A DNA stretch of 61,186 bases. Origin: Spirogloea muscicola. Taxonomy: Eukaryota; Streptophyta; Zygnematophyceae; Spirogloeales; Spirogloeaceae. The translations under genes and the position numbers were made by a program. The stretch covers positions 181,048 to 242,233 of the forward strand of contig WELB01000008.1 in the NCBI GenBank assembly GCA_009602725.1. The letters run 5' to 3'. Positions within the stretch are counted from its first letter, which is position 1; each line of letters begins with the position of its first letter. The notes beneath the pieces are model-generated. The model had not been told where the DNA came from. It made no database searches and saw nothing but the letters and a program-made list of their open reading frames with translations. This document shows positions 7,187 to 60,930 of this stretch, in pieces.

Positions 7187-7315
7187 CTTCTTTCTTTGTG
7201 TGCTTTGGTTTCTTAGCGCTTCCTCTGGTTTCCTCTGGCCCCCTTCTCGTTCTTTGTTCATTCTTTTTTGGGCTGGCTTGTCCAGCCCCTATCCTCAATG
7301 GGCGAGCCCTTTCTT
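7187..7315 (+). repeat. Dispersed hairpin repeat, module 1 copy
   Basis: This copy has a T-rich lead-in related to the inverted repeat at the window end, then the block CTTAGCGCTTCC..TGGCCCCCTTCTCG, then a GGGCTGG-CTTGT-CCAGCCC hairpin (7270-7288) and CTCAATGGGCGAG. It lies in the divergent promoter between the fibrillin gene and the gene starting at 7456. Confidence 0.8.
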
Positions 7316-7455
7316 AACGGTGTCTACCGCTACCATGTGAACGGCGCGACGGCAGCAGCGGCGTTGCGCCAGTGAAGCCCAGCTTGCCATCTGGATCAGC
7401 CGCCCCGCCTGCGTGGCGAGGCCCAGTCAAGAGGTACACCTCACGCCCGGCAGCC

Positions 7456-8757
7456 ATGGCGCGCGCCGCGCCGCCGCCCGCCGCCGCTGTCGCCGCGGCG
7501 GCGTTTCTGCTCCTGGGCCTCGCAGGCGGCGCCGCCGCCGCCAACGAGTGGGGTTCTTGGTTCGAGGTCGGACCACCCACCCTTGCTGCAGCTCGACTGG
7601 CCAGACCTGGCTTTCCGGGCTGATGGCCGGCACGCCGGCGGCGGACTGCGTCGCCGGCTTGCCGCGTTGACGGTTCTGCTTGCCGTTCACGCGGTCGCTG
7701 CAGGGCCCGCGCGCGGCGCTTGACCTCTACCGCACAGTGCGCAGCATCACAAGCGTGTCAGGCGCGCTGCACACCATCCTCTACAAGGTGGCCGAAGAGA
7801 AGCGGGCCCGCGGTGACTACGAAGGTGCGGCTCCTTTCCCGAGCAGCTGCAGCCAACGAGTGCGTCTTTTGGAAGAAGCCGCCCCCAACCTGCCATCTGC
7901 CACACACACCTTCACTATCTGGCTGCATCGGGCTGCGTTTCACGTGGCAATTAACTAACTGTACATCTTTAACGGCAGTGTATAGTTGGCTAGGAAAACC
8001 GACACTTAGGCAGCATGTTTAGAATCTAGAGGTCGTCGTCCTGTGGTGGCAATTCTCACCACGGCACAAGAGCTCTCACAGCTCCAGGTTCTTGCTGAAG
8101 GCTCCATGTGGGGGCTAGTGCTGGCAATCAGGTGCCACGAGGATCCAGGGGTATGCCAATAGCGGGTGGACATCAGGGTGGGCGCCAGTGTGGACCCCTT
8201 GGGGCGCCTGGCGGGCAGCCAGCCAGGTTGCATGGGCATATGCCTCGAGCGCCTGGTTTGGCCGTCCAAAGGTCAGCGCGGCCCAGAGGACAGTACAGGC
8301 CGCGCAAGACTTGGGCGACATACTGAAGGAGACTGCACACCTTGCCACAAACCTCGACAAGCAGCAGTGGTTCAACGAGAACAAGGAGAAAGTGAACAAG
8401 GTCTCGAAGATGCTTTTTGGAGATCTTTCGGGCATCTTTCAACACATGGTAAGCCGCTCTTGCCAGTCCCATGTATCACAGATCAGCTGTATTGATGGTT
8501 AACTGTACTGGAGGGATCACTGCATGAATGCTAGCCATTTGTGTAAAACATATGCGTGCAATTGATTATTCTTTTTCTCCTTACAGGGACCAATTGGAGA
8601 TGTCATTCACTCTGTCAAAGCCGAGCTTGAGTCTGGAAACTTTATGGGGGATGCTTTGAGAGTTGCATCTGCAGATGTGCAGAAGCTGGTGAACGGCATA
8701 CAAGAGCTCCTTGGTCAAGTCCAGAAGAAGGCAGCCGCTTATAAAGAGGAGCTGTGA
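7456..8757 (+). CDS. Unrecognised small helical protein with N-terminal signal sequence, 220 aa
   Basis: Four exons join in frame: 7456-7566, 7704-7824, 8189-8448 and 8587-8757, giving 220 residues and a TGA stop. The N terminus, MARAAPPPAAAVAAAAFLLL followed by GLAGGAAAANEW, has the form of a cleavable signal or lumenal-targeting peptide with an Ala-x-Ala cleavage zone. The mature part is predicted mostly helical and charged, with ALDLYRTVRSITSVSGALHT, a Trp/Ala-rich stretch, WFNENKEKVNKVSKMLFGDL and a C-terminal amphipathic helix ending KKAAAYKEEL. I do not recognise a family and see no catalytic motif. The terminal KEEL only loosely resembles an ER-retention KDEL; whether it works as one is unknown. 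Donor and acceptor phases are consistent across all four exons. The acceptor at 8187-8188 was chosen because it restores the frame. It shares a 670-bp divergent promoter with the fibrillin gene. Confidence 0.7.
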
Positions 8758-9189
8758 AGTTAGTCTAGAAAGAGCAGTGCTTGGAGCTTCACCTTAGTAA
8801 CAGACTTGCTCATCAATTCTTCATTTGCAACTGCACAGTAGCTCCTAGTGTACTCATGCTGGCTCAACGAGCCTGCTGTCTTGGACTCCTACTGTGCACA
8901 AAAGAGAGCTTCATTTTACAGGTAGCTTGCAGATGAAGAAGTCTTCAACTGTTGTGCACATACTAGCTGTATTTGCTCTAATGGGCAGTAGAGCTTATTG
9001 CTTTTCCAAAATAGGTTTCTCTTGGCAAGGGCCTGGGTAGAGTCTGTTTGCTGTCTGTCTGCTGTTCCTGGAAATTAAATAAATAGGGCCCGGTGCTTGC
9101 CATTGGCGAGGATACAAAGCTGGTTGTATGATGCCATATCTGCAACAGATGGAGGTCAATTGGCCATCAGTATCAAGAATCAGGACATC
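8758..9189. other. Convergent 3' intergenic region
   Basis: This stretch lies between the ends of two convergent genes. It carries stop-rich, low-complexity 3'-UTR-like sequence, with no convincing exon on either strand and no copy of the dispersed repeats. Confidence 0.5.
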
Positions 9190-9685
9190 CTTCGTGTTTT
9201 ATGAATGCAGCCTGCCTGACTGGTAAGACGTCTGTGAAGCAGCTAGCAGGCTCACCGAAGGTATCGCCAAAGCTGGTCACAGCCTCCTCTTGTAGCACGT
9301 TTTCGCCCTCCACAAGGCCAATAACCTCAGCATAGGAGCTCGGGTACGCGATGCCCGACGGCGAGCGGACGGTGATCTGGCCGCCGTCGGGGGCCTGACC
9401 CTGCACTGTGCCGTCTCCTGGCTGCCTGAGCACCTGCAATAGCCAGCCATCTCGCAGGCGGTCAGCAGGCTGTTCAGTGCTCAAGTCAGCTGGCACCAGG
9501 TGCAGCGGCAGCAGATTGGGAGATGTTAGGCAAAAGCAAGCGGCGCCACGACGATGGTGACAGCCAGAGAGGGCAGGCTGCAAGGTGGGGCCTCCCGTCA
9601 CCTTGATGACGGTGCGCACGCGCCGCCCAGCATGGCGCCGCATCAGGTCAGCGTTCACCATTGGCGCCGGCGCCGACATGTCCAT
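9190..9685 (-). CDS. RPA3: Replication protein A 14 kDa subunit (RPA3-like)
   Basis: RPA3 is the smallest subunit of the heterotrimeric single-stranded-DNA-binding complex of DNA replication and repair; it is a single OB fold. Exon 1 (9602-9685, 28 codons) encodes a start followed by PMVNADLMRRHAGRRVRTVI, matching the family N-terminal VNGxxLxxxxGKxVRxVGKV pattern. Exon 2 (9256-9433) encodes GDGTVQGQAPDGGQITVRSP, then YAEVIGLV and VTSFGDTF, the conserved strand pattern and the typical SFGDTFD-like end. The acceptor is TTGCAG and the donor GTGAGC. The usual C-terminal helix for trimerisation would lie in a last short exon around 9190-9235, where two acceptors give different short tails, so the 3' end is uncertain. 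The family call rests on motif order and length. Confidence 0.8.
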
Positions 9686-10052
9686 GGCGTCCGCAGCGAG
9701 TACGACCGTTCAGCCGCTATCGGCGCAGCCGTGGTGCTGCAAGGGCGAGCCGCCCCAGGCGGTCGCTGAGCCTGGGCTCTGGCGGCTTGTCGGCACGAGG
9801 CACGAGCTGAGTGAGCCTGAAGGCCGGATGTGTCCCTCGAGAGCGCCTCTCCCTCAAGGGCCTGAGCCGGCCGCCTGCGCACGGATCCCCGCCGTCAGCG
9901 CCGCCGCCGCCGCAGCCGCCGCCAGCTCCGCCGCCGCCGCCGCCGCCGTCAGCTCCGTCGCCGGGCCTGCCGACTGGAGCGACGGCGGCTGGGCGGGACC
10001 TCGCCGTCGAAGCTTTTGAGCGCCTCCGGCTGGCGCGAAAGAAGAAGAAGGA
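9686..10052. other. GC-rich promoter region with CCG/GCC microsatellite
   Basis: Sequence upstream of RPA3, dominated by GCC/CCG triplets (about 9890-9960). Both strands stay open by composition alone and give Pro/Ala-rich frames; no exon is supported. Confidence 0.5.
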
Positions 10053-10120
10053 AGTGCTCGCCATTGAGGATAGGGGTTGGAAAAGCCAGCCCAAAAAAGA
10101 ATGGACAAAGAAGAATGACA
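10053..10120 (-). repeat. Dispersed hairpin repeat, module 1 (reverse copy)
   Basis: This copy reads AAGTGCTCGCCATTGAGGAT, then AGGGGTTGGAAAAGCCAGCCC and AAAAAAGAATGGACAAAG. It is the reverse complement of the copies at 7270-7305 and 30236-30275, with a few substitutions. Confidence 0.8.
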
Positions 10121-10279
10121 CTTCCAGGAGAGGGCGATGGCTTGGAGAGGCCTGCCCAGAACACAGAATGAAAGGGAGCGAAAGGGAGCCATTGCCTTCT
10201 TCTGGGAAAGCTTCTATACCACTGGTTAGCACGTAGAGCTTTGTTTCATGTATGCCTTGACTATTCTGCACTCATATCT

Positions 10280-10547
10280 GCCTGAACACTGTGTTGGCTT
10301 GAGTTGGCCTCGCTTTCATTTCCTGCGCACCGCGCGCCCTCTCTGTAGAAGAAAGTGCTCGCCCATTGAGAATAGGGGCTGGAACAACCAGCCCGAAAAA
10401 GAATGAACAGAGTACGAGAAGGCTAAGCAGCCGCAGATCAGAGATGCTGGGCTCCTGGAAGTGGGTCCACTGGCCAGAGCCAGAGGCAGCAGCGAGGGCT
10501 CTGCCGGCACGAAGGTGCAGCGCCCGGGCCATGGACCTCTGCAGCGA
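10280..10547 (-). repeat. Composite repeat: module 2, module 1 and interior of the foldback element
   Basis: Three blocks follow one another. At 10280-10347 lies module 2 (GCGCACCGCGCGCC next to GGCTTGAGTTGGCCTCGCTT). At 10349-10425 lies module 1 with the hairpin GGGGCTGGAACAACCAGCCC. From 10426 to 10547 lies a near-exact reverse complement of 61010-61120, the interior of the foldback element at the window end, including CCGCAGATCAGAGATGCTGG. The copy lacks most of the 64-bp arm present at 60934-60997, so it appears deleted or recombined. Confidence 0.85.
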
Positions 10548-10759
10548 GACGGCCAGGCGCATTCGATACACTTGCGCCAGCGACCCGGCTGTAGAGCGCG
10601 GGAGGGGCTTCGCGGGGCTGGGGTTCCCGCGCTGTGGGTGCGACGACTCGGCAAATGGCTTACGAATAACGTTGCCCTGCCGTTTACCGCCGGCAAGGGA
10701 CCGCCTATACCGTCGAGGGCTGCATTTGCCGCGGCGTGAGCCCGCAGCCGCTGCCGCCT

Positions 10760-10790
<31 letters not shown>

Positions 10791-10880
10791 TGCTGCTGCC
10801 GCCCCGCAATTGGCCGACCGTCGTCGACTCCGCGGCTCAGAGGTGGCGGGCCCCCAACGTAGACGTGGAAGGCGGGTCGG

Positions 10881-13490: not shown

Positions 13491-15329
13491 ATGAAGTGCA
13501 ACGGCTGCTGGAAGCCCCTGGACGGCCGCGCTATTGCTACCACCTGTGGCCACATCTTCTGTGAGCAAGCTGCAGTGCCTAGCTGCATCTACGTTTCTGC
13601 AGTCCTCTCTATTCCTCCAGAAGCAGTAACCTCGCTTCTTGCTGTCCATCAACTGACCTGTTGGACACATCCAAGTGGTGCTGGAGATCCTTGTGTAATG
13701 CGGAAGTTGGCCCTGATCTTGAAAGCCAGGCACGGATGATGCAAGTCGGATTCTGCAAGCTGGGACATGCCCGCTCTGCGAGCACGCTCTGTCCAAAAGG
13801 TGTAGCACGCGGCATCAATGAATGTTGAACAAGCCGACTGTTGACACATGACCTTGTTTTGTTGTCATGTCGATGTTACGTAGACTGAGTGACAAATGCT
13901 GCGTATATGCTGCTTCTGGACTAGCATCAGTACCTTCAGGCTAGTCAGCTCACATATGCAGCACTGCATCATGAGTGACAAATGCTGCGTATATGCTGCT
14001 TCTTGACTAGCATCAGTACCTTCAGGCTAGTCAGCTCACATATGCAGCACTGCATCATGCAGCAACATGAAGGCTGTCGACATGAGCCCCTCTGATGACT
14101 GGATAAATGTACTCCTCGTTGCTCCTACTGTATGCTCATTGTGCTGGTTCGCTGGTTGCTCGTATCAGCCACTCACCTTCTCAAAATTACTTATCATGCT
14201 GCTGGCTATGATTGTGCAAACCTTTCAAACAAGCTGCAGGTCCGATTTATGAATTGATGACTACGACTTGATGACTAAGACTTGGTTGTGGTGCTCATGC
14301 TGGTGAACCAGATGATCATGGCTGGTATCCCTCCTCACAGCAGTATCCTAACTTCAGCTTGTGACTACCTCCAACCTAGCATGATAGAAGTCTCTTTAGG
14401 CGGCCTAATTGCAATACCAAGACGCAGTATCCCCACAACCTTGCGATGTGGATGGCCGGAAAAGTGCTGCCATGTGAGCCTTGACCTGGACGCAGTAATG
14501 AAAAGTGCGTTCAAGGGTGTAGTCTTCTGGATCGGGCAAAAGGATGTCGAGTCCCAGGTGACCGTTACCAAGGCAGTGCAGTTGAAGGCCAGGTTCGAGG
14601 AGGTTCAAGCAAAGTACCTAGAGAAGCTAGAGCAGGTCCATGCTGCCTACCAGAAAGCCATGAAGAGGGCTCAAGCCCTTGAACATGAAAAGGAGAGCCT
14701 TGTAAAGGACAGAACGGAATTGCAAGAGAAGTACTCTGAAAAGTCCAGGTGAGGGCTTCCGCTGAGTGCTCCTGCTGGTTGATGTCTTAGTCCTAGTCGT
14801 TCGCACTCAAGCTCCCTTAGACCTTGTCCATTCTTTTGGGCTGGCCTTTCCCAGCCACCAGTCAATCTGGCCGCGCTTTCTTCCTGCTTGCCCTGCATAC
14901 TTGGTCAAGCGATGGCAGCTGAGCAACAATGGCATTCCTTTTGAGTGCACTGTGTGTGACAGACAGAAAAGAAAGCTGGAGGAGATGTACGACTCGCTGA
15001 AATCAGAGTATGACTTATTAAAGAGGGGGACCATCATGCCATCCAGTGGCCGGAGGGAGCGCACATCGCTATTTGATGCACGGCCTCTATCAGCAGGCAA
15101 CATGAACATGCCGAGAGACAGGACGCCAGTCTTTGATGCGCCATCCCTGCCCCCACGGGCGCGCACAGGAGGTAGCCCTGCCGGCTTGAGCCCCTCAATT
15201 CATTACCGAGCTTCGCCATTCCCCACCGCAGACACCTCAGTCTTCACTCCCACTACTACCAATCCATCAAATGCCTTGCGGAACCTCCTCTTATCTCCTT
15301 TAAGGAAATGGCCACGGCAGAGTAGGTGA
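13491..15329 (+). CDS. HEI10: HEI10/CCNB1IP1-family RING E3 ligase, meiotic crossover factor
   Basis: HEI10 is a RING-finger coiled-coil protein that accumulates at future class I crossover sites on meiotic chromosomes and is a SUMO/ubiquitin ligase of the Zip3 group. Exon 1 (13491-13560) encodes MKCNGCWKPLDGRAIATTCG and HIF, the family N terminus. Exon 2 (13730-13799) encodes DDASRILQAGTCPLCEHALS, completing the RING with CPLC. Exon 3 starts at 14063 with NMKAVDMSPSDDWIN. The next exon (to about 14750) holds VMKSAFKGVVFWIGQKDVES and a long coiled coil (EKLEQVHAAYQKAMKRAQAL, ELQEKYSEKSR). Exon 14963-15329 continues QKRKLEEMYDSLKSEYDLLK and ends with NALRNLLLSPLRK, the C-terminal motif seen in plant HEI10. 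Phases agree for exons 1-3. The short exons make the gene easy to miss. A tandem duplication lies in intron 2 and a dispersed repeat in the last intron. Confidence 0.93.
13886..14057 (+). repeat. 86-bp tandem duplication inside HEI10 intron 2
   Basis: Two adjacent 86-bp units (13886-13971 and 13972-14057) start TGAGTGACAAATGCTGCGTA and differ at one base (TTCTGGACT versus TTCTTGACT). The second copy ends six bases before the first base of exon 3, so the likely branch-point region is duplicated. Confidence 0.95.
14820..14880 (+). repeat. Dispersed hairpin repeat in the last HEI10 intron
   Basis: The copy reads GACCTTGTCCATTCTTTTGG, then GGCTGGCCTTTCCCAGCC and ACCAGTCAATCTGGCCGCGC. It matches 60705-60815 almost base for base. 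Confidence 0.85.
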
Positions 15330-18709: not shown

Positions 18710-18710
18710 N
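18710..18710. other. Single undetermined base at a composition break (probable contig join)
   Basis: One N separates GC-rich promoter-like sequence from the interior of an aminopeptidase gene that has no C-terminal half in the window. The composition jump and the truncated gene together suggest an unsized assembly gap or misjoin. Confidence 0.75.
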
Positions 18711-20476: not shown

Positions 20477-21322
<846 letters not shown>

Positions 21323-25868: not shown

Positions 25869-26960
25869 ATGCAAACCAAGAGAACAGAGAAGAGAGAAGG
25901 CGCGCGGTCGCATGGCCTCGTGAAAATTATTCCAAAATAGAAGAAGAAACAGTAGAGAAGAGGCGCGCGGTGTGCATGAAATGGTAGGGTGGCCAACTTA
26001 AGCCAACACACTCTTCAGCCAAGAGCTAGTGCAAATTTCGGGGCTACATAAGGGCTGTACTAAAGTGGCTAGTATAACAGAAGAAAGAGTACTTCAAATT
26101 AGAGATAGTGGCTGCGAGAAGGCCAGGCAAGAACAACTACACAAGGTTCATAAGGGACCGGAATACGGAACTACTCTCCGTAAACTTCGCAAATGAACGC
26201 TCGACAGAACCCGGATAACAAATGCAGATCAGAGAAAGTAGAGGGCGGAATTGTGTTGACCTGGCGAAAGCCGGAGGTAGCAGCCAAGGCCCAGCCTGCC
26301 TGCAAGTGGACGGCAGAAGGGGGCAATAGGCTGTGAAAGGCGGCCCAAAAAGGACTGACAAGGTCCGAAAGGGGCCGGAAAGTCCTAATGCAGACAGTTA
26401 GGCAAGTGGCTACCGTAATTGGTTGCTCACATTATAGAAGAGAGGCCAAGCAGAGCCAGTGCATAATTGTACAGAAAATGCACGCAAAGTGCCAAAATTG
26501 GGGCTACATGAAGCGAATGCGGAAACCAAGGCTGAGAGGTGCTTGAAAGAGAGGAACAGCGCTTCCAAATTGACTGGTGGCTGAAGAGGCAGGGCGACAG
26601 CACAGCTGAAGGAGATAGGGCGCACGATGCACATGGTCTGACAGGGAGGCCAGGGCGAGCCAGTACACTTTCCAAGCTCAGGGGCAAAAGAGAAAATCTA
26701 GCTCTTTCAGGGGGCCGGGGGCTGTGAAAGCCAGCCCAGAAAGAATAGCGCGTCCAAAGTGACTCTCTCAGCCACCGGTGGTTGTGAGAGGTCAGCCCAA
26801 GAAAATGGAGAAGGTCTAAAGCGGCCGGATGGCGCAAAAAGCAAGATACTACAGAAAGAACGGACAAGGTCCAAAGATATGGACCCCATAAACAATAGGG
26901 GCTGGGAAGGCCAGCCCAAAGATATGGACAAGAGGGCCGGAAGGCGCCAAAAAGACAGCT
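25869..26960. repeat. Cluster of dispersed repeat modules upstream of SNRNP40
   Basis: The region holds successive diverged copies of both modules. GAAGGCGCGCGGTCGCATGG (25897) and GAGGCGCGCGGTGTGCATGA (about 25960) are module 2, followed by GGCCAACTTAAGCCAACACA. From 26550 to 26960 there are repeated units of the form GTGAGAGGTCAGCCCAAGAA, GGACAAGGTCCAAAG and AATAGGGGCTGGGAAGGCCA. All long frames here are made from repeat sequence. No gene is supported. Confidence 0.75.
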
Positions 26961-27484: not shown

Positions 27485-29983
27485 TTAAGCGCCACAAGGA
27501 GAGTCTCTCTGTGCCGCACTTTGCTCTACATGGGCCACCTCGGTGGCTTCCAAGATGCACCCCTCTCCTTGGGTGCCAACTTCCCGACGATACTTGAATG
27601 CCTGCAGGGGGTCCTGCTCAGTAGCTGGCTCGTCGTCCTCCTCGATACCACCATCCTGCCAGCCCTCATACTCTGCTGCATCCGCGTCCTCATCCACTGC
27701 AGACTGGCTGTCGGCACCCCTATCCTGTGCGAGTCTTTCCTCTGCACCAGCGTTTCTAGCTCCACCACCCACTTCTGACCGGCGCTCCGAGAAAGTGCGC
27801 GCCACCCCCTGTACGCAGCGGTGGCAGCGGGCGGCCTCGGCCGCGGCCTCCACTTGGCGCAGGCGGGCGAGATTGACTTTCAGCTTGACTTGCAGATACT
27901 TGATGTAATTGATTGCCTCGTCAAGCATTGACGCCGTGTCCATCTTGCTGCCTGACGGCACAAGCTGCTGTAGTATTTGGATGCGCTTGCTGATGCGGTC
28001 CCGCCGCTTGCGCGCTGCGACAGACTGCGGGTCCGTGGCCGTGCCCCGCTTCTGCCGGCCGGTACTTGCCGCCTTCAAACACCCGGGGCTATTGGCATGC
28101 CAGTCCTCGGCTTCAGGACTTGCTACGGTAGTGAAGGGATCTTGCTTGCTGTGATCACTGTTTACTTTGACGGCCAAGGCGCCCCCCTGCATACTGCCTG
28201 CTGCTACTGCCATGGAGGCAATGGCTCTTCTTTTTGCGGGAGGCTCCATGGCCGCCCCTGGCAAGCTGGTAGGCCCACCAACCTCTTTTCTCCTCCTGCT
28301 GGTAGGCCCACCAACCTCTTTTCTCCTCCTGGCGCCGCTGTAACCGCCGGTACCCCTATTGCCGCCATCATGCTGCAACACCTTCACTTTTGCGCTGCTC
28401 GCGAAGTCTCCCTCCTCATCCTCATCATCCTGCTCCTCATCAAGTGCTCCTTGCACTCCCCCCCTGGCCATGCTGCCGCCCTCCTCCCAATTGCAAGCGA
28501 GCCTGTCATACAACGTCGTCTGGCTCGCTGGGCTGCCAGTGCTGTGCTGATTCCCTGCCAGAGCATCGCTCACCCACAGCTGCGGATGGCTGCTGCAAGA
28601 TCGCAGAAGCAAGCTCTGTGTTAATAACGAGTAGCTGCCACTCACTATTGCATGGCTGTGGTGTGTTCAATCTCACACGCACACGTGTATGCACAGCACA
28701 GGGCTAGACTGGAGGGGGGGGGGGGGGGACAGAGCGATTAGAGCGCATTGTGGGCGATGAATATGAAACAAGGCAAGCTCTATTCATGTGCCATATTGGG
28801 AGGCAGCTAGTCACCTGGGGAGCGCGGGCAAGGAGCCAATGTCGCGCGGCGCGGCGGGCGACGACAATGGCGGCATCGTGGCAGCAGTAGTTGCGCCTTG
28901 CCCTTTGGCCGAGGTATTACCCAGCAAGATGTTAGCGGCGTCCCCAAGCGGCGGCCAGAGGGCCGTCGATGCAGGCCTGCTGTCAGTGGTGGTAAGCTCG
29001 GCAGCCTTTACGGCGGAGCCGATGATGTCAGACAGCAAGTTGCTTGTGTCACTGGCCGGGTGGGAAACGAAGTGTGGGAGGCCCCCATCCTGGTTGCCGG
29101 CATCCTCGTAGAGCAGAGCGCTCATAGTAGAGTTGCCAAAGGCGTCCTCACTGCCAGCAGTGGGGCAGCCACCACCGCAGTGGCCGTTGCCAAGAAGCTC
29201 CTTGTCCAGAAGGTCCTGCCACGGGCCAGACCCACGCCTGCTTTCCAAGAGGTACCGAGGTGCGAATGGAGGGGTCAACGGCGACCCCAGTGTCACGTCG
29301 TAAGGTTGTCCGTCGCCCATGGCCGTAACGCGTGACGGCAAATGTGGCAGGGTCTGGGCGGCTGGCAGCCAATGCTGCCGCTGCCGAGGATTTCCTGGCG
29401 GCCCTCGCCAAGGAAGAGCCCGAGCAGCACTGATAGTGGCGACAATTCGGCGGTGATGGCAGTAGTAGTGGTCGGGCCCGCAACGGTCAGCAGCCGCTGC
29501 GCGAGGTCGCCGGTGAGCGCCGCGACGGCATGCTCGCGAGTGGGCGGAAGGGGCCGGCAGAGGCGCGCGCTGCCGGCTTGGAGCTCGCGGGCGGCGTCGC
29601 CCAGCAAGCTGTGCAGGGCGGCCAGCGCTGGGGACGGCGCTGGCGAGGAGTTCGCGGCGGTCGATGCCTGCACCAGCAATGAAAAACGGCATGGCGGAGA
29701 TCAGCCGCCGTGTTGACGAGCTCGGCCGTGCAAGCGGGCGAGGACTCGATCGCCACAACGCGGCTGCTTCGGTCCTGCGAATGCAATCGAGCAGCGTTAC
29801 CTGGTGGAGGTAGTGGGGAGACAGGTGGGCCGGAGCGGCGGCTGCGGCGGCGCCGCTGCCTTCGAGCAAAGTGCGGAAGGCGGCGACGGAAGACGGCGAG
29901 AGGCAGAGGGCCGGGGCCGCAGCTGCTGCTGCCTCAGCGCGCGGATGGTGGGTGGGGCCCGAGGCGGCGTCGGCGCCGTGCAT
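27485..29983 (-). CDS. Class VIII-like basic helix-loop-helix transcription factor
   Basis: The DNA-binding domain lies at about 27870-28030 on the minus strand: [20 protein letters not shown] followed by [20 protein letters not shown] and [14 protein letters not shown]. The basic region has the R-x-R-R type E-box contacts, and the loop [11 protein letters not shown] is typical of plant group VIII (RSL and HECATE types). N-terminal to it are an acidic stretch ([14 protein letters not shown]), a duplicated [11 protein letters not shown] segment and a PPAKRR basic patch. The C terminus is acidic and ends SPCGA before TAA (27485). Upstream exons are inferred: start at 29983 ([14 protein letters not shown], with HLSPHYLHQ before a GTAACG donor), an Ala/Leu-rich exon at about 29300-29670, and an exon ending at 28815 ([13 protein letters not shown]). 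The bHLH exon is certain; joining it to the 29983 start is a model. Expected to be nuclear. Confidence 0.8.
28265..28330 (-). repeat. 33-bp in-frame tandem duplication in the bHLH exon
   Basis: Two identical 33-bp units (28265-28297, 28298-28330) encode [11 protein letters not shown] twice on the minus strand, just N-terminal of the bHLH domain. The length keeps the frame. Confidence 0.95.
28714..28728 (+). repeat. Poly(G) run of 15
   Basis: A homopolymer in an intron of the bHLH gene, prone to length error in sequencing. Confidence 0.9.
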
Positions 29984-30149: not shown

Positions 30150-30290
30150 ATACGTAGCTGCTTTGTTTCTTTGTGTGCTTGTTTTCTTTATCGCTTCCCC
30201 TGGCCCCCTTCTCGTACTCTGTTCATTCTTCATTGGGCTGGCTTTTCCAGCCCCTATCCTCAATGGGCGGGCACTTTCTCTCGCTGCAGC
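30150..30290 (+). repeat. Dispersed hairpin repeat with partial foldback arm
   Basis: It starts TACGTAGCTGCTTTGTTTCT, which matches the foldback arm at 61146-61165, runs through CGCTTCCCCTGGCCCCC and TTCTCGTACTCTGTTCATTC, and ends with the hairpin GGGCTGGCTTTTCCAGCCCC and CTCAATGGGCGGGCAC. This copy links the arm of the foldback element to module 1 in one unit. It sits about 165 bp upstream of the bHLH start. Confidence 0.9.
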
Positions 30291-31154
30291 GCACTCCTGA
30301 CACGTCCCCCCGCAGCTTGTGGGCCCCCCCCCCCTTCTTCGTCTGCCCCATGAGGGATGTGCTTTGCCTCCGCACTAATAAGCGGTTCCGGGCGCTCGTT
30401 GCCCCCATGCACGCCTCTTCTGAGATCTGGGCGCTGGAAGCGGGCCCCCGCCTAGCGAGCACGCAGTGAGCCACCATCCTTCGCGGTGCTTGCACAGGGC
30501 TGTCGCTTCAGCGCTTGCCGGCCCCTTCGGAAGAGCCCTTTCTCTTTCTCAATGGGCGAGCACTTCCTCTTATCCTCGACGGGCGAGCCCTTCTTCTTTG
30601 GGAGAGCCCTTCCCTGTATTGGCTTGAATTGGCCTCCCTTTCAATTCATGCGCCCCGCGCGCCTTCTCTCTTCTGGACGGAGCTGCTTTCTTTCCTGGCG
30701 CCCCCGGGCGCAAATCTGAGTACCGATCTTCTTCTTTACTTTGCCTTTCGCCCACCCCCAACCCGACCGTTGGCGCGCCCGCGCTTGCCCCCCGCGCCCG
30801 CGCCGCCGCCGCCGCCGCCGCGGCGGCGGCGGCGGTCCTTTCGCCCCCCGCTGCCGCCGGCTGGCGAGCTGGCGCCGACGAGCTCATGGCCGCGCCAGGC
30901 CCCGGGGCTTCTTCGGGCGCCACGCTCAAGGCCGCGCCAGACCCTGGCCCCGCCCCTCTGGTTGCCTCGCCGCTGCCGAGTTCCCCCGGTCACCCTCGGC
31001 TGGGCAGCAGTTCCCCGTGCCTGCGCCAGCGACAGCTGCTCCTCCCGACGCTTCAAGCCCCGCGGCGGCGGCCTCGGGCGCCCCGGCCTCCTCTACCCCG
31101 GCGGGAGCCGAGCTCGTCCTCCCCTACCAAGCGCCTCCTGTCTTCACGGGCAGC
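30291..31154. other. GC-rich region with repeat copy, cut by a single-N join
   Basis: Strongly GC-rich, with CCG microsatellites near 30800-30835. A plus-strand frame at about 30990-31154 (SPSAGQQFPVPAPATAAPPD) is Pro/Ala-rich and could be a first exon, but it is open on several frames and runs into the N at 31155. No family is recognised. Confidence 0.4.
30541..30676 (-). repeat. Dispersed repeat: module 1 fragments plus module 2
   Basis: CTCAATGGGCGAGCAC and a second GGGCGAGCCC fragment are followed by GGCTTGAATTGGCCTCCCTT and GCGCCCCGCGCGCCTTCTCT, the reverse complement of module 2. Confidence 0.8.
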
Positions 31155-31879: not shown

Positions 31880-32045
31880 TTCCCTGGGCTGGCCACTCAC
31901 AGAAAGAAGTGCTCGCCCATGGGGAAGAGGGGCAAAGCCAGCACAAAAAAAATGGACAATGTCCAAAGCCAAGAGAGAAGGCGCGCGGTGCGCATGAGAT
32001 TGAAAGGGAGGCCAACTCTAGCCTTACACAAATTTCCCTGTTTAA
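31880..32045 (+). repeat. Dispersed repeat, copy with both modules in order
   Basis: Module 1 (AAGTGCTCGCCCATGGGGAA, AAAGCCAGC, AATGGACAATGTCCAAAG) runs directly into module 2 (GAGAAGGCGCGCGGTGCGCA, TTGAAAGGGAGGCCAACTCT, AGCCTTACA). This copy shows the two modules belong to one element of roughly 160 bp. Confidence 0.9.
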
Positions 32046-32349
32046 CTGGGTAATGAGCTGACTAGGGAGGACACTAATATCCCCGAGTGAGCTCATGCAT
32101 ATAAGCCAAAGGAAGAGGTGCCGAAAGCCATCACCATGCCATCGCATCACAGCCATCGCCCTCTTCCCTCCTGCCATTGCTGCTTCCTCAACCTCCTCTA
32201 GCAGCTCCACAAGCGGTACCGGTCGAGTCGACATGGCCCCCGTCAGCACGGCTCCCCCCGCTCTGTGGCACCTCCGGCCCTCCTAGTATAGGGCGTCTTT
32301 TCATGTAGCCACATTCTTTGCGCTGCATTCTTTGCACTTTCTGCATTTT

Positions 32350-32425
32350 CTGCCTGAACAATGTAATGGCTTGAATTGGCCTCGCTTTAATTTCATGCGC
32401 ACCGCGCGCCTTCTCTCTCTTCTTG
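32350..32425 (-). repeat. Dispersed repeat, module 2 only
   Basis: GGCTTGAATTGGCCTCGCTT, then TCATGCGCACCGCGCGCCTT and CTCTC: the reverse complement of module 2. Confidence 0.85.
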
Positions 32426-36900: not shown

Positions 36901-39900
36901 AGCAGTCGGCCAGGCCGCAGTACACCATGCGGCCATGCCGCGTACCTGCCTGCGAGCACACCAGGCAGCGCCGGACATCCCGCGCCTCCTCCTTGCTTGG
37001 CTTCCCCTGCTGAGCAAGCACCCCCGGGCGGTCATGAGCTTCTTGCACACTCTTCATATGCTTATGACTTGCTCCTCCATCCTCGCAGAACTCTGCTCTC
37101 TGCTCCTTAGCACCTGGTTGTTGACCCCCTGCCTGAGGTGACAGCCCGTTACTAGACTTGCGCTTCTTCACGCGAGCCTGCATGTGGAGTTTCTTCTGAA
37201 CCGTAAATGGAACTCCCGCACTGCCATCTTGGTCCGTGCTGACTGCCACACAAGTGAGGTCCAAAATGGCATTGTCTGCCGTGCCCTGAACGCAGTCATT
37301 CTTCACACGGAAACTGCTAGCAGCACAACCATTTACCGCCTCTCCGGCGCCTGCAGTAGCACTTGCCTTTGACAGGTCCAACTTGCCCCACAGATCTTTG
37401 TCTGCTCTAAGCTTGGTCGCATTGGGGGGCCTTGTCGCCCCCAAGAGTGATGCAGCTGGATTAGGCTGTCCTTCATATTCCAGCAGCGCTTGCCGCACCA
37501 AGCCCAAGGTGCACTCACCAAGCTGTGCCAAATATGGGCTCAATGGCTGTCTGCCATCACCAGGTTGCCACTCCTTCACTTTCTCGCTGTCCTTGTTGGC
37601 AATGCTTGGCATGCACGCCCCTGTGGCAGCCCCCACCGTCGCTTGGCTCTGTCCCCATGGCGTGCAACCCTGGCCTTGCCCAGGGATAGCTGGCCTTGTC
37701 GTACCCTGCTGTGGCACCTCTGTAGCTGCAGTTGCTGTGTGACTTGGCAATATACCGGCAGAGGCCCTCTGCCCATTTGGCATTGCTGCCATCCCTGCCA
37801 TGGCCAGAGCCACATGAGCGCTCGCTGCCCTTGCCAAGGCGGTCGCCTGAGTCTCGCCCACCAATGTAAGAGCCCGTGCTGCATGAGCTGCTGCCGCCAG
37901 GTCGTCTTGGCCCTGCTGGCGTGCACACACAGCCTGCTGCCAGACCGACAATCTGGTCAGGAACTCCCCCTTCTCCCTGGTGCTCAGCTCCTTGGCGGGC
38001 ATGGCTCCGCTAAGAAGAGCGTCACATGGCGCTGCTGCTGCTGCTGATGGCATGCAACCTTGCATTTCTGGCCCAGCTCTTGCCGTCGCCGACCAAACAG
38101 TAGCATCACCACCCGATGTGGCCACTGCCTTGTCCTTGGCTGCAAGTAGCCTGCCTTGCCACTCGACCGTGTCAAGCTTGTTCGCCAGCAAACCGGGGCA
38201 AGCTGGCGCCCGTGGCTTCTCCTGAGCATTCACAATCCCCTGCACGTGCAAAGTACAGGGACAATTTAGTGCCTCATTTGTCAGAATTGAAGGGCAGGCA
38301 CCTTTGCAAGCAGGAACATCATGCTACCATCCTTTGTGTGCGGCTAAACATATTCAACATCACCAAGCATCTTAACGGGCAAAACCCCTGTGACAGAAGG
38401 AGCTGCAAAAGACAAACTCACCGTCGGCAATGACAGACCAACACATCGAAAGGGCGGCTGCTTGGGAGGAGCCTCAATAAAGACCTGGAGGACAGACGCC
38501 CCCAGCTTGCTGCCAGGGTGCTCGCCACTGCTGCTTCGCCGAACGGTCCCCACCGTGCGCACCCAGACCGGCGACCCACAGATCTGGCACTCCTGGTTGC
38601 TGCCACCACAGTAGCACGAGATCGCCCACTGACTGGCAGAGGGCGTCATGGGCTTCAGCAGGCTGGCAGCAATACGTGCGTGGTACTGCGATGCGTCAGC
38701 TAATAGCTGGGCATGGCAGCGCTGGAGCTCCTCCACTGTCGACGGTGGCAGCCTCGCCGCTGAGCTGCTGAGCAGCCTAGCCGAGTAATGCTTTTTTGTT
38801 GCCTGATCCTGCCAAATGTAGACCGTGCATCGCCTGCTCGCGACCACAGCCGCTGCTTGTGGCAGCGGCTGCAGTGCAGCTGTCCAGACGCTGCATCCCA
38901 CGGCTTGCTGATGCCGCTGGAAGGCCTTTAGCCAAGCTCCCAGCGACGGGACCTTGCCGCCACCAGCAACCAGCAAATCAGCATGCATGGCTGCAGACCG
39001 CGGCGCTGCCAACGAGTTGCAATTCCTGTCACCTGATTGGGGGCTTGAAAACTGATTTGGTCCGTCATTTGCAGGCCGCTCATTCAATGCCCATGAAGCA
39101 TCCCGCTGCCGCTTCCGGGCCTGCACCCTGCCAGAGCCCTGAGCACAAAACTCAATCCAACGCCGCCTGTTGGCACTAGTGTCCTGCTGGGGTATGCAGA
39201 CCGGCCTCAGACTGTCCGCTATTTTCATGCCGCCATTGCCTAAGAACCCCTCCTGACAGTTACTGCCACCGTCTGCTTCGGTAGCCTGCATCATGACATA
39301 GCAATGCTGCAGTCAGATTGGCCAGACACAAAGCAGTAGCAGCAGAATACTCAAACGGTCTATCATGCTGTGAAACTCAACAGCCCTTCCACTGTGAGCT
39401 GGACTGCATATCGGGAGGTGTACTAGGCACCCATGTGTGGGCCATCAGTAGAACCTCATCAACCGTGGGCAATGGTCAGAGCAACTATAACCCCTTCCTT
39501 TCCAGTTAGCAAGTTTAAGATGGCATTTTGCCTCATGAACTATGCAACTTCATGCATGGGACAGAACATCGCCCCCCGTTGTGCACTGAGCACAGGGGCA
39601 GGCATAATTATGCATGACACTTCTTCAGGCTCATTGTTGGTGCAGTATTGTACCTCGGATGAAACAGCCACACCATGGCCATAGTCCTCCCTGAAGGATC
39701 TGGCAGAAGACAACATTGGCGGTGGAGTGCAGCCCAGCTTGACTGATGGCACAGGCTGCTGCTGCTGCTGCTGGTGACCCCACAATGAGGACGGGGGCCC
39801 AGGCCACCTTCGCACCTGCTGCTGCTGCTGCTGTCCCAGCAGGGCTGGCGCAAGCGGCCAAGAAGCTCCGAGGGCGTCTGGAGTTGGTAAGCCCTGGTCT

Positions 39901-42900
39901 ATGACTGTGGGATTGTGGTAGGCGGAGCTCATGGTGGCCCCACGAGCGAGAGCGAGATGGTGCGCTAGCGCGCGCCCCATCAGCATTCTCTGCCAGCTGA
40001 GGGCCGCATCTGGGAGCTGTCCAGTCATGTCTTTGCTCGTCCCAGTCAGCCCCTGTGTGGCACATGGCGGCGCAGTTAGGAGCGTAGGACCTCCCAGCAC
40101 CATGGCAGCGCGATGCATATCCGGCATTGCAGTCATTGGCTCCGCCACAGCTTGCTTGCCACCGTGACCAGCCAGCATGACTGGCTCATCAATGTCAGCA
40201 GCGTGGGAGAGCTCAGCCTCCATAGGCTGCGACGCTGCCTTCAGCTCCACCTCGGCAGGCCCAGCAGCCGCCAGCACGGCCAGCTCAATGCTCAGCGTGG
40301 CCTCCACCGCGGCCTCAGCTTCACCCAACTCCAAGCTGCCGCAGCCACTGCGGTTGCTCTCAGAAGGCCTGCCGGATGACAGGACCCCCGGTTCCTTGCC
40401 CTCTGCCACTGCCTCCTTGTCGCCCTCTGCCGCTGCTGGAACAGCGGTCGCAGCCGCCACTGCATGGTTGCCCTCCGCCTCCGACTGCAGGAAGCGGTCG
40501 AGGGGCTCGACACGGAGGTGGATGCCGCGCTCGCGGCACTGTTTGCAGAAGTATTTGCCTTTGCTCCCCGTCACGGCCTTGCGCATCTCCAGGCCAGACA
40601 CCAGCTCCGAAGACGTGCGAGATGACCGCTGCGGACAGCCGCTGAGGTTCCTGGCCCTGGCAGCTTTGGCTATCGCCTCGCGGGCGTGCCGCTCCTGCTT
40701 GGCGCACGCCGCGTGCACGGTCAAGCCGCAGCCTTTGCATGACGTGACCTTGCTGGCGGCAGGAGCTTCTGGCAGCGGCGGCGGCACTGACAAGCCCAGC
40801 TCCTTCGACTGAGTCCCCGCAGGCTCCTCTTCTTCTATCCCACCGCTGTTGTCGCCACCCAGCGGCAGGGCACAGGAAGCGCACGCCCCGCCCAGGGGCT
40901 GCTGGCGCTGCTCCTCCTCCATGGCTGGCGCGCAGCTGCTGCACCAGACCACTGTGCTGCGTGCTAGCCAGCAGGTCTCGATTGGCGGGGCAGGCTCGCT
41001 GTCGTTGCCCAGCGAGGCGCCGCAGCGTGCGCAGGTGCAGCAGGCAGGGCAGGGCCAGCCATACGTGCCCGCCAGGTGTGGCGCCGACGGCCGGCTGCGT
41101 GGCGGCAGGCATGCTGCATGGTGCGACTGGTCGCAGATGGAGCAGACCAGCAAGTCCGCATGGACGCCGCCGCCGGCGGCACCGACGCCGCACGTCTCGC
41201 AGATCTTGCAGGCCTTGCACCGCCAGAACGCGCGCAGCTCGGGCGTGGCGCGCAGTGGCGGCTCCAGGCAGAAGGCATGGAACGCCTCGCCGCAGTCGGC
41301 GCAGGCGACAAACTCCTCAGTGGCATACTCGCCCAGGCCTCCGCACGCACTGCAGCTCTCCAGGCCATGCAGAGCCGCCGGCGTGTACCGCAGCACGGTG
41401 TGAGGCCCGCCGCTCGGTCTCTCGCTGCAGTGACCCCCCGCGCAGCCGCCGCCCCCGTCGCTGCCGCTGTCGCCGTCGCCCCCTTGCCCACCCACGGCCT
41501 CTTTGCTCCTGCCGCAGTCACCGCTCAGCAGCTCACTCACAAGTCGTATGCCCTTGGCCCTGGGCCTCTCGACCGCCAGCCGTCGCCGACGGCGGCGCTT
41601 CTTCCTCCTCGTGCATACGGTGCGGCTCCTTGGCGGCACCTTGACCACGGCATCTTGCACTAGGAGAGCCGGCTGAGCAGCAGCAGCACCCTTTCCCGCC
41701 AATTGCAGCTTCGGCTGGCCGAGCTGATGCTCACTCCCGAGGCAGGGAAACTCTTCTGTGAGCTTTGAGCTGCTACTGGAGTTGGCGAGCAGAGGCGCAG
41801 CTGCGCCGGCTGCGACCTCCGCTGCGAGCGCATCCTCCAGCACCATCGACCGCCGGGGACATCGGCGCCGCCTCCTCTCTGGCACCGCCGCCGACAATTC
41901 CACCTGTCTTGACACCGGCGCTGCTGCAAGCGGAGGCTGCCGCGTCGCAGCCAGTTGCTGATCAGCAAGCGCCAGCAGCTCGCCTTCGCGCTCTGCGGCT
42001 GATATGGCAGCCTGCTTGCCATGACAGCATCGATCTCCCACTCCTGCCCCCAATCGTGCGGCTCTGCCTGTGACGGCAGCACCATCCAAGGTGTCTGCCG
42101 TCACCACCAAGCCCCCGTCATCCTCGTCACTCCAGCCGCATTCAATCAACGGCGGTGCTTGCGCTGCAGCCGACCCCTGCGCATCTAGACCAACCACTGG
42201 CACTGCCAGCAGGGCCGGCAGTGCGCCACTGAGGGCAGATTCCATCGGCGCACTGCTTGCCCACACAGAGTCGCTCTGCTCCGAGTGCCACCTGCAGCTG
42301 TTGCACTGCAAGAGATGGGCAGCAGAGGGGAAGGGTCAGCTTGCTGCGGCAGCGAATATCAGCAACCTCCATGTCTGGGCCACAGCTACTGTCAGCAGCT
42401 GCCATCTCTTTGACAGAGTTGACCCTTTCAAACACAACTCACATGGCAGTGAAGGAGGGGATCGAACACTAGCAAATACGTTGAGCAAAGGCAACCTTGC
42501 TCACCACGCTGTGGTTGTCGGAGGGGTCAGCCGCGAGGAGGGGGCAGGCGCCGTGCATTGAGCGTGAACATGCAGCGCACTCCAGCAGCTCGCTGCCTGC
42601 CTTGTTTCCCTCTTTGTACACCTGGCAGCCGCAAAAAGCAGCACCAGTGACTGTCAGGCATGCTTCAAGGTTGCGCTGCCTGGACTGCCGGGTGGTACAT
42701 CAGAAATGACATCTGCGAAGCAGAATGGTGAGGTGCAAGTATTCGACCTTGTCACAGGCGCCGTGGCAGAAGAGCTCTGTGCAGCCGGAAGACGTGGCTG
42801 GCAGCCCAATGATAATGTGGCGCTCCCCTCGAGCGGGAGAGACAGCTGTCTGCGAGAGTGCGCCGCACCTTGGGCAGCTTCTAACGGCAGCGCCAGCCAG

Positions 42901-44509: not shown

Positions 44510-44800
44510 AGAATAGCGCTTCCAAGTTGACTTGGTGGCTGTGAGAGGCCAGCCCAAAAGACCAAAACCGAGGTCCAAGGAGGTAAGAGGCTGACAGAAG
44601 TGAGCTCATCCAAAGGGGCGAGGGCTGTAGAGAGAAGGCGCGCGGTGCGCATGACTTGAAAGGGAGGCCAACTCTAGCCTTACAAATGTCCTGTTACGGG
44701 GTGATGTGCCAGAAAGAGGAGGGCTGTAGAAAGCCAGCCCCAAAGGAATGGACAGGGTCCGCAAGGGGCCGGAGAGCAAAGAGTTGGGCTGAGCCTACAG
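44510..44800 (+). repeat. Dispersed repeat cluster upstream of the MLL-type gene
   Basis: GCGCTTCCAAGTTGACTTGG and GTGAGAGGCCAGCCCAAAAG are followed by a well-preserved module 2 (GAGAAGGCGCGCGGTGCGCA, TTGAAAGGGAGGCCAACTCT, AGCCTTACAAA) and another module 1 derivative (AAAGCCAGCCCCAAAGGAAT, GGACAGGGTCC). Confidence 0.85.
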
Positions 44801-57700: not shown

Positions 57701-60235
57701 GCATTCATTCTGCGACGCAAGCCAACAGTGAGAGACTGAATACTGTAGTGCATATTGAAAGCTATGCATAGGGCAATCAAAGAGAGATAGCGACTTCATG
57801 TAGATAAGCACGACCACAGTAAGAAGCCGGCTCATCACCTGGTACAACGGGAGGGGTTTGTCTGGAAATGTATGAGGGCCAAAAGGGTCCATGTGTATGC
57901 TGAATTGAAGGCCTTTTGAGAGCCCCATTATGTTGGATATGCTGGCCATGAAAGAATCTCTGTCCTGTACGAAGTAGCGAGTAGGGCGCCAGCTCCGAAA
58001 TTCTAGAAGGACCTCTGTACTCTTTGTAGCGGAAATCACCACCCCCAGGATGTCGCTGAGACTGCCACAGCAGGATCAGATCAATATATTAGCAAGAGTA
58101 AATTTTTTTGGTAAGCTTATGTAAGACAACGCAGTCCTTAAGGCGAGATAGCCACTGTTACAGTCCATCTGCACATTGTTTGTTCAGGTGCACTTGATAG
58201 GTGCCTTGAAAGTTAGAGCACCATGGTGGGTGCCAAAGTGCACTTGGAAAGTCACAGCACGATGAGAGCTGTGTATGTGTTTTGCACAAAGGCAAATGAC
58301 AATGAAGTTGACAACAAAGTGGCGTCCTTACCTATGATCACAAATGATCTCGTCAGCTCCCTTCTCTATCAAGTTGTGAGAAGTTAGATATAGAGTTCTC
58401 TCTCTCAGTTCACCAGCTTCCTCAAACCCCTTCAGAGCTGCAAATTCGTACAGGATGCTCCGATCTCGCTGCATAGAAGTTCCAAGTGATGCCATAAATC
58501 TTAAAACCACTTGGTCTACACCAGAAAAATGGTCTTGCTACCATCAGTTGATGCAGCTGCGCAGATCTGAAAGGTAAGGACGGAACATCAGTGAAGTCCT
58601 AGAAAAGATCCTGTGCCAAGGGGCTTCTTCTGACCAGAATGCTTTGTCTGGACGACACTGTATCCACCATGGCTGCTGCTGAAGTCTTCGCAAGCTGGAT
58701 GTCCCTGTTGAGGTACAGCTGGAGCATATGTATACAAGCGGAGGTAACAACAGCATGCGTTAGCTATAGAGCATGACTTGGACATCTTGGAGGCGTCACT
58801 GGCGCTCCCCTTAGTATGAATGCATTGTTTAGCTTTGAGCAGATGATCTTGTTGCCTTACACCCCATACAATAATTCATATCACGAGCAAGGACTAGTAA
58901 AAGTAGATCTGCACATTAGGCACTATGACCGACAGGGTCTGCAGATTAGACTAGCCGAAGCACATTGCATTGACATCAGCATGTCAGCTTGTACAGTTGG
59001 TGGATCATCCACCTTCATATTGCGCTGCACAGCAAGTGCAAATGCTAATGAATCGCGTAGAGACAGTCTGAGAACTCTTGACTTGAAGTGAAGAAGAACT
59101 ATGCGACCATCATCTCCCAGTATTTCAACCTGCAAAATGTCCTGCAGATTGATCTTCTTGGGGTTGGCCTGCAAGACGAAGTCCAATCTCAAATCGTAAG
59201 TACGTCCAAGCTTACAGTTCTGTCATCCTTTTGATCCATGATATGACTCTTTTCTATCAGACAAAAGGATTACTGACACTGAGCTCAATATCTGCTCTGT
59301 GCTGACCCCTCCAAGTATGGCAAAGAGAAACCACAGCACTTTACCGGGTGAGGCATGCACAGGAGCACAAGTTGCTACAGAGCATACTCTCTATCATGAT
59401 CATCCAAGAAGAGGCCTACTGTAATGTTCAGTCATTGATTCTCCTCCCTCCGATCTGCATGTAGGTAACCAGTGCTTCTAAGTGCTATATGCTGATATCA
59501 TATCTTGCACAATTCACGACATTTGCAGCTCCTTTTAGCATCCCTCTGGGTGAGGAGCACAGACCAGCTGACGCTCCAGCCTGGCGCCGGCAGCCTCCAT
59601 TTTCACAATCGACGTACTCCTTACGCGCATTACAGCGTCAACGAAGCCCTCCCTGCGGTGGCTGTGCTTCTTCAAGTGAAAATCAGTTCCTGTAGTGGCC
59701 AGAATAGATTTGCACAACCGTCCTGATATCAGCTTGAAGTAATAGATGAGCATTGGCTGTGACTGCAGCAAGCGAGCCTGCAGCTTCTTGTCATTGTCCA
59801 AGCACAATGCCAGTGACTAGGCCAAGATTGCGGGCAAAGGACGATTCCTTCTGCAGGCCACTGCCGTAAGTGCTTCAGTCAGCTTATACTTCTGCATTGA
59901 AGATAAAATAAGTAGCTTGGCTCACCAATGCCATTGAGGTCGTCCAGCTTGTTGTGGAGGGTCGTGAGGAGCTCGCTCCGGGCACTGCTCAGGAAGGTAT
60001 GCACCTCTTTGCCGCCGCTGCTGAGAGCGAAGGTCTCGAAGGAGAATTCGCAGCGGTCCTGATTGGCAAACCGCAAGTTGGTGACCATATCGAAGCTGTA
60101 CTGTGTCGCAGTGGGGTTGATTGTCGCGAGCGTGGTTATGTAGATGCCGTGCTCCGTCACCTTCAGTATCCTCGACGAGCCGCGCGTCGGGCGAGCGTAA
60201 CCGGGGAGCCGCACGAGGAACGTCTCATAGTCCAT
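45703..60235 (-). CDS. RME-8/GRV2/DNAJC13-like endosomal ARM-repeat protein
   Basis: RME-8 proteins are very large peripheral endosome proteins that act with Hsc70 and retromer in endosomal sorting. The start at 60235 (MDYETFLVRLPGYARPTRGS) leads a PH-like domain with ILKVTEHGIYITTLATINPT. Later blocks include 58930-59170 (LQDILQVEILGDDGRIVLLH), 57640-58040 (TEVLLEFRSWRPTRYFVQDR), 56370-56570, 54490-54630 (a first IWN motif, VLVWNDIKRADL), 52880-53090, 52480-52760, 50945-51110 (a second, DPEVIWNNEMKALLVEHV, then SPVSYPEL), 50570-50740 (FVAPVYLHHLLDIE), 50340-50440, 49845-50010, 49505-49690, 49110-49350 and 48690-48975. A long exon (46074-48134) of helical repeats contains CLVWDQGTRAQVTKAL and YLGGYYLDQFLRDPSYQFPR. 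It ends at GTAAGC; a phase-compatible last exon stops at 45703 (PREPESEGNGSTGYESP). Order and spacing match plant GRV2 and animal DNAJC13. No HPD J-domain motif or GYF domain was found where expected. Many junctions are approximate. Confidence 0.75.
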
Positions 60236-60699
60236 GGCCGGCCCCCAGCGTTCGTGTGAGCGGCCGAGTAGGCCGATCGAGTCAGTGGCCCAGCCGTAAC
60301 GAACGGCAAGGACGACCGAACCGAACCGTCAGTCTGGCACTACAGAATTCGTAGGCAGCCTCATCCGAAGGCCGGCCGCGGGACGATGCAGGGCCTTGGC
60401 AGCGCCGCGGAGATTCGCCTCGGCCAGGCGGACCGGGGGCCGGGATCAATGGCAGGGTGCAGCAAGCAAGCCGGGTAAGTCTACAGCACCGCTGCAAGCC
60501 GCCGTGTGCAGCCGGGCGTCGGCGCCGCTGCCGGGTGGCCCGCGGCGCCCGCCGCCGCAAGCCGCGGCGGGGCCGAGGTTGGCGGGATGTGGGGGTGGGG
60601 CTCCACCAGCTGCCCGCGGTCGGGCCGGGCAACCGCCAACCTCGCCGGCTTCACCCGCCTTCGCTCCACTGTTCCCCTAATTCCTAATTCGCACGCAGG
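60236..60699. other. GC-rich 5' region of the RME-8-like gene
   Basis: GC-rich promoter-like sequence. On the plus strand a short frame from 60387 (MQGLGSAAEIRLGQADRGPG) ends at a good GTAAGT donor near 60477 and could be the first exon of a divergent gene running out of the window; there is no further support for it. Confidence 0.35.
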
Positions 60700-60930
60700 C
60701 TCCCTCAGACCTTGTCCATTCCTTTTGGGTTGGCTTTGCCAGCCCCTTTTCTCAATGGGCGAGCACCTTCTTCTTTGGGCTGGCCTTTCCCAGCCACCAG
60801 TCAATCTGGCCGCGCTTCTCTCCCAGCTGTGTGTTTCCCTTCTTTGTTATGTAGCCCTGTTTAGATGAAGAAAGTGCTCGCCCATTGAGAATAGGGGCTG
60901 GAACAACCAGCCCGAAAAGGAATGAAAAGA
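60700..60930. repeat. Dispersed hairpin repeats in both orientations
   Basis: At 60705-60770 lies CCTTGTCCATTCCTTTTGGG, a TTGGCTTTGCCAGCCCC hairpin and CTCAATGGGCGAGCACC. At 60777-60820 lies GGGCTGGCCTTTCCCAGCCA with CCAGTCAATCTGGCCGCGCT. At 60866-60920 the reverse orientation follows: AAGTGCTCGCCCATTGAGAA, TAGGGGCTGGAACAACCAGC. Confidence 0.9.

Follow-up and report, generated by a model that had tools for sequence, protein, structure and literature searches.

The DNA analysed here, a stretch of 61,186 nt from a contig of Spirogloea muscicola (hereafter the window), carries a family of short dispersed repeats built around a GGGCTGG/CCAGCCC hairpin. The 20-mer GCTCGCCCATTGAGAATAGG has seven matches in the window at three mismatches or fewer, two of them exact, while no match was found in 100 shuffled windows. 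In addition, a perfect GGGCTGG/CCAGCCC hairpin with a loop of 3-8 nt occurs five times, versus none in 100 shuffles. An earlier note on this DNA had described at least a dozen copies sharing the 20-mer; the family itself is real and far above chance, but this count was overstated. A covariance model (CM) of the whole tail, trained on 17 sequences of which eight were window copies, gave 12 window matches at E<=0.01, and ten of the 12 coordinates listed in that note lie in or just beside CM copies. The remaining two differ: position 30541 belongs to a copy that is cut off 16 nt short of the end of GGGCGAGC and lacks the hairpin, and position 60777 to a 5'-truncated copy of a relative whose 3' box differs. 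The features of the window are collected in Table 1.

Table 1. Repeat copies and other features of the window (nt, position in the full-length element of locus L169; CM, covariance-model match)
Feature	Position	Strand	Evidence and remarks
5'-truncated LINE copy	7188..7315	+	3' end 7315; hairpin 7270-7288; repeat-covered throughout; 7230-7315 = nt 4025-4110, 89.5%; CM 7249-7315, 88 bits
5'-truncated LINE copy, 3' end leftmost	10043..10113	-	10043-10110 = nt 4115-4047, 85.5%; CM 10048-10113, 76.5 bits
Second family	10277-10347
5'-truncated LINE copy, internal deletion, last ORF codons present	10347..10594	-	hairpin 10376-10394; nt 4112-4037 at 100%, nt 3976-3804 at 98.8%; CM 10349-10415
Tandem duplication	13886-14059		86 bp, 98%
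Related-lineage (F5) 3' end, same hairpin kind	14819..14882	+	3' box CAGTCAATCTGGCCGCGC; CM 51.2 bits
Unbroken run of 109 A	20477-20585
Second family	25952-26021
Decayed, weak tail copy	26302..26366	-	CM 27.2 bits, E 1.5e-4
Decayed, weak tail copy	26693..26751	-	CM 25.8 bits, E 3.6e-4; nhmmer
Tail copy	26874..26936	-	7-bp hairpin 26899-26917; CM 40.6 bits
ORF, bHLH domain	27485-28645	-
5'-truncated LINE copy	30163..30280	+	hairpin 30235-30253; 30188-30279 = nt 4018-4109, 91.3%; CM 30214-30280, 79.5 bits
Very short tail fragment	30545..30568	+	ends before hairpin, 16 nt upstream of GGGCGAGC end; nhmmer E 7e-4
Second family	30615-30672
Degenerate tail copy, hairpin broken	31903..31964	-	CM 47.3 bits
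Second family	31971-32058
Second family	32349-32418
ORF, PHD fingers	39540-42311	-
Second family	44627-44709
Degenerate tail copy	44707..44760	-	CM 27.2 bits, E 1.5e-4
GGGTTGG-subfamily (F3) tail	60707..60774	+	60713-60774 = nt 4050-4112, 85.7%; CM 60707-60772, 82.3 bits
Truncated F5 tail, abuts preceding copy	60775..60817	+	sequence, F5 3' ends
5'-truncated LINE copy	60867..60998	-	hairpin 60895-60913; nt 4111-3974, 94.2%; CM 60868-60934
5'-truncated LINE copy	60999..61186	+	nt 3851-4038, 100% over 188 nt; into assembly gap (Ns) at window end

Several other features share the window with these copies. The second short dispersed family is constant at one end, ...TTGGCCTCCCTTTCAATTCATGCGCACCGCGCGCCTTCTCTCT, varies on its 5' side and looks like another retroposon 3' end; 31 distinct copies at E<=1e-4 were found among the loci examined. 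The run of A residues may be a retroposon tail or an artefact. The DNA is GC-rich, and the bHLH ORF also matches two plant-type bHLH models, below the cut-off. At the right edge of the window, the last two copies stand head-to-head, 5' end against 5' end, with zero spacer, and the right end of the arrangement is lost in the assembly gap. No plasmid match was found for window positions 1-8000. In viral contigs a 14-mer occurred in at least 120 stretches, but none of those listed contained the 20-mer or a 16-mer from it, indicating that these are chance matches; no relative of the element ORF described below was found in viral contigs.

The family is abundant genome-wide. In 153 Mb (471 contigs), the exact 20-mer was found at 898 + 913 sites and its reversed control at none, and among the first 100 listed of these 1,811 sites, 34 had a neighbour within 1 kb, compared with 2.4 expected at uniform density. 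Alignment of the copies revealed one constant end at AAGAAGAAAGTGCTCGCCC, with the opposite end varying from copy to copy. Read on the opposite strand, this becomes a constant 3' end, ...GGGCGAGCACTTTCTTC, with a variable 5' end, which is the signature of 5'-truncated retroposons; the earlier note had read the wrong strand and missed this LINE 3' end. The upstream extent was compared for 27 copies from 26 loci, of which 25 gave a value, and three reached the edge of the examined stretch. Two copies elsewhere in the genome are full-length (L169:5412-9522 and its counterpart in L170); they are 99.951% identical over 4,111 bp, have different flanks, and each contain a single long open frame of at least 1,328 codons. 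GGGCTGG begins 76 nt past the ORF stop, and CCAGCCC ends 28 nt before the ACTTTCTTC end. A self-comparison of the 4,111-bp copy at E<=1e-3 returned the trivial match only, and the element thus has no LTRs. The window copies collectively cover nt 3804-4115 of the full-length element, and the copies at 30163-30279 and 7188-7314 match each other at 81.9%; two more short window matches correspond to nt 50-90. It is nearly certain that the modules are LINE 3' ends.

The ORF of the element (P0001) encodes a reverse transcriptase (RT; RVT_1, E 8.4e-16, over the cut-off). Four PDB matches were obtained at E<=1, three of which are R2 proteins (E 7e-7 to 1.1e-6) and the fourth a zinc finger (0.83), in a comparison that covers solved structures and hence no LINE clades without them. 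Two N-terminal zinc-finger-like motifs are visible in the ORF sequence (zf-C2H2 E 0.019, below the cut-off). By eye, the C-terminus displays C-x-C-x12-H-x3-C followed by D-x14-D, resembling a restriction-like endonuclease (RLE), and a similar arrangement is found in L189; the spacing differs from the CCHC-knuckle pattern CX2-3CX7-8HX4C given in PMC5678591. No Pfam or PDB match at E<=10 was obtained for the endonuclease domain, and no APE endonuclease was found in P0001, with RVT_1 as the sole profile match at E<=0.05. A genome search with RVT_1, in which 150 of 985 candidates were scored, also recovered other RT elements, and the exact tail anchor was absent from ten 3.5-kb stretches around such elements. 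Those at L159-L168, whose RVT_1 scores are the same or nearly so and whose open frames measure 1172-1237 aa, may represent another, perhaps active, retroelement family.

Target-site duplications (TSDs) of at least 7 nt were found at 28 of 99 copies with readable flanks, compared with 3.9 expected when flanks were swapped; they were not seen at the other 71, and no clear TSD was seen at the two full-length copies. Seven of the 28 TSDs begin with CTT, although a few of the 28 are CTT-like themselves and could have been lengthened by the tail. After ACTTT, zero, one, two or three CTT units follow in 9, 33, 29 and 3 copies, respectively, with 25 of the 99 unparsed. Most copies are short, with length quartiles of 69, 136 and 275 nt and only two of 99 full-length, in a sample that favours young copies and clusters because it was drawn from tail-sequence searches and chosen stretches. 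Start points appear to be widely spread among 59 copies. The varied flanks and the many contigs do not correspond to a single 28S rDNA site.

Family sequence was present on both sides of 44 of the 99 copies, compared with 45 of 171 control flanks 600 bp away, a measure that comes out too high wherever a copy is interrupted by an indel. A palindromic pair at L130-L132 (G000:C320) is best explained as one copy that inserted into a second, oppositely oriented one, with the TSD CCTGGCC. Separately, 11 of 136 tails are seemingly cut within the hairpin loop, which might reflect an enzyme stop; as at least three of the 11 are loop indels, we do not claim such a stop.

These properties bear on whether the repeats could be something other than LINE ends. 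Head-to-head inverted arrangements such as that at 60867-61186 might suggest a DNA transposon, for instance a MITE, whose terminal inverted repeat is the module. However, the copies have a single fixed end and varying truncation points instead of two fixed inverted ends, the source element encodes an RT, the L130/L132 palindrome is a nested insertion with its own TSD, and, among 100 listed sites, the 21 pairs of neighbours no more than 1.1 kb apart are oriented almost evenly (11 same, 10 opposite), all of which makes this explanation scarcely credible. It is likewise very improbable that the repeats are a SINE, or small RNAs of the cell that have a function of their own, with selection acting on each copy. 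Half of the 99 sampled copies are no longer than 136 nt and end in the common tail, just as SINEs share the tails of LINEs, but longer copies reach into the LINE ORF, the start points appear widely spread, and single stem changes in the copies mostly break pairs. No Rfam match or tRNA was found in the window.

Minimum-energy folding of six tails gave the inner hairpin in every one of them. The z-scores of the whole tail were -4.4, -2.5, -3.0 and -2.4 in four of these tails, whereas the remaining two scored -0.7 and -1.0. An outer helix, GUUCAUU/AAUGGGC, is strong in the predicted folds of the main types and absent in two of the six tails, one of which also lacks the inner hairpin in its centroid fold. 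Swapping the arms of this outer helix gave no support for it (pairing 0.770 versus 0.772 swapped; 317 of 500 swaps as high).

Covariation was considered as a proof of the fold and rejected, since no clear excess emerged in three counts. The earlier note had held that the stem stays paired while loop and flanks vary. Among 118 distinct tail rows, all seven pairs are intact in 58, and at least one is broken or gapped in 60. In 116 of these rows, assigned to five subfamilies, single stem changes left 48 pairs broken and 17 still paired, and two-sided changes left two paired and one broken; changes within subfamilies thus mostly disrupt pairing, the pattern that dead copies should show. Two-sided changes numbered 2 cells versus 1.3 in shuffles (206 of 500 as high). 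A third count, based on the best 150 of 229 matches (from 52 sources, 100 distinct rows), gave 3 pairs versus 2.8 (294 of 500) and 7 cells versus 3.4 (22 of 500), with the covariation score reached in 61 of 500; sliding the partners by -1 produced 21 two-sided cells, more than the 7 of the structure itself. The share of paired cells was 86.8% versus 86.1% shuffled, a value that 1 of 500 shuffles attained, but this is one of five measures, kin sequences can yield it without structure, and the alignment had been fitted to the model. RNAalifold did not recover the stem from the 17-sequence alignment, perhaps owing to register shifts between subfamilies. The earlier note had itself proposed to ask whether compensatory changes in the stem exceed single ones and had named the lack of such an excess, or simple decay of one ancestral sequence, as evidence against selection on the fold. 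At the level of copies the outcome is largely of that kind: no clear excess was found, and the copies themselves are consistent with simple decay.

The fold as such is therefore not proven, and a conserved primary sequence would fit these counts too. Accordingly, the stem of these LINE 3' ends might be kept as linear sequence, for example for RNA processing, for 3'-end formation or for a protein that reads unpaired sequence. In favour of this, the letters of the inner stem hardly vary across 182 tails, and a clear compensatory excess is missing. Three observations render it unlikely: the consistent prediction of the inner stem in minimum-energy folds, the retention of a G-U pair in the subfamily change from GGGCTGG to GGGTTGG, and the loss of pairs, which is far commoner at the outermost and loop-closing positions than at the five inner ones.

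Variants shared among copies provide a view of the source elements. We took variants seen once as mostly private decay and those seen at least three times as mostly inherited, excluding from the test those seen exactly twice (10 in the stem, 14 elsewhere). In the 182 tails, the 14 stem columns contain 9 shared and 12 single variants, compared with 88 and 36 in the 53 other columns, so that the stem is depleted of shared relative to private variants (Fisher p 0.022; inner five pairs, 0.027). This evidence is moderate, as the choice of alignment has an influence and the copies cannot be treated as independent.

A comparison of related lineages in the genome points in the same direction. A stem of the type GGCTG(G)/(C)CAGCC follows the ORF end in lineages that are 57-75% identical over 39-181 aa, with the tail match beginning 29-89 nt beyond the ORF match, while the loop and the 3' box vary. 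By identity of the ORF end to the reference, these include L149 (73%; GGGCTG/CAGCCC), L171 (69%; GGCTGG/CCAGCC), L182 (67%; GGCTGG/CCAGCC), L150 (65%; GGGCT/AGCCC) and L181 (57%; GGGTTGG/CCAGCCC), the stem being shortened to 6 or 5 pairs in some of them. Another lineage, with 62-64% identity across aa 937-1350, carries GGGCTGGC-TTCT-GCCAGCTC, and the more divergent L184 and L178 have shorter GGCTG/CAGCC hairpins. In L174 and L158 (41% and 44% identity), neither GGGCTGG nor GGCTG was found within 330 nt past the ORF match in this orientation. Taken together, selection would plausibly be visible solely at the source level and not in individual copies. Selection on the fold, as the earlier note proposed, is thus plausible for the source elements, although the grounds given for it and its extension to the copies themselves do not hold.

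Among known elements, the closest parallels are the RLE-type LINEs (R2, NeSL, Utopia and HERO), which share with the present element a single ORF, an RT and 5'-truncated copies and, as far as motifs visible in its sequence go, N-terminal zinc-finger-like motifs and a C-terminal Cys/His motif with D-x14-D; no profile confirms the endonuclease in our element. For Utopia, PMC4640811 describes one to three N-terminal zinc fingers, an RT, a C-terminal ZF and an RLE, and for HERO many non-specific and some microsatellite-specific elements. Whereas R2 occupies a single 28S site, the present element is dispersed, in which it resembles the R2-like BLAG of cockroach, described in PMC7650587 as non-site-specific and located at random genomic positions; this likeness, to animal elements, is one of description only. 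The 5'-truncated, clustering copies recall Zepp/ZeppL, L1-type LINEs of green algae whose 5'-truncated copies pile up in nested clusters (PMC8226300), but the present element ends in CTT repeats, has no endonuclease family match and occurs on many contigs. Among the titles listed for RLE LINEs of green algae and neighbouring subjects, none describes this element.

UnaL2 has a short repeat tail. The stringent-type LINEs UnaL2, ZfL2-1 and ZfL2-2 have a 3' stem-loop in common with the present element, in our case by predicted fold and position and without covariation support. The ZfL2 elements belong to the L2 clade according to PMC4176376, whereas the present ORF is R2-like in its RT and has no endonuclease family match. 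As outlined in PMC4176376, stringent-type LINEs depend on a stem-loop at the 3' end to which their own protein responds, with the stem recognised generally and the loop specifically, and R2Bm and R2Dm require their 3' UTR. This mode of recognition fits the kept stem and varying loops observed here.

We consider it highly likely that the modules represent the 3' ends of 5'-truncated copies of an RLE-type, R2-like LINE and of several related lineages. The hairpin is probably what the LINE's own protein recognises in the RNA for target-primed reverse transcription, judging from its position, its source-level conservation and the stringent-type precedent (PMC4176376). The RNA of the youngest type terminates in ...GGGCTGG-loop-CCAGCCC-CTATTCTCAATGGGCGAGCACTTTCTTC. 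The protein of the element would bind the 3' UTR stem-loop, and its endonuclease would nick a site that often starts with CTT; the AAG 3' end released in this way could then anneal to the CUUCUU tail, from which reverse transcription may start, with occasional slippage varying the number of CTT units. Reverse transcription would usually stop early, leaving stubs with little but the hairpin, that is, the modules, and the inserted copies would then decay neutrally.

More tentatively, these elements may constitute a group of R2-like RLE LINEs that combines a compact tail in the style of UnaL2/ZfL2 (a near-invariant stem, a lineage-specific loop and a CTT slippage tail) with widespread insertion in place of a single target site and several co-existing lineages, in which the stem could be a shared handle and the loop a lineage address. 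With the modules read as truncated LINE tails, an unexplained hairpin repeat becomes a mechanistic object. As this genome holds several lineages that retain the stem but differ in the loop, the choice of RNA by LINE proteins becomes a question open to testing through comparison of sequences and simple assays of binding.
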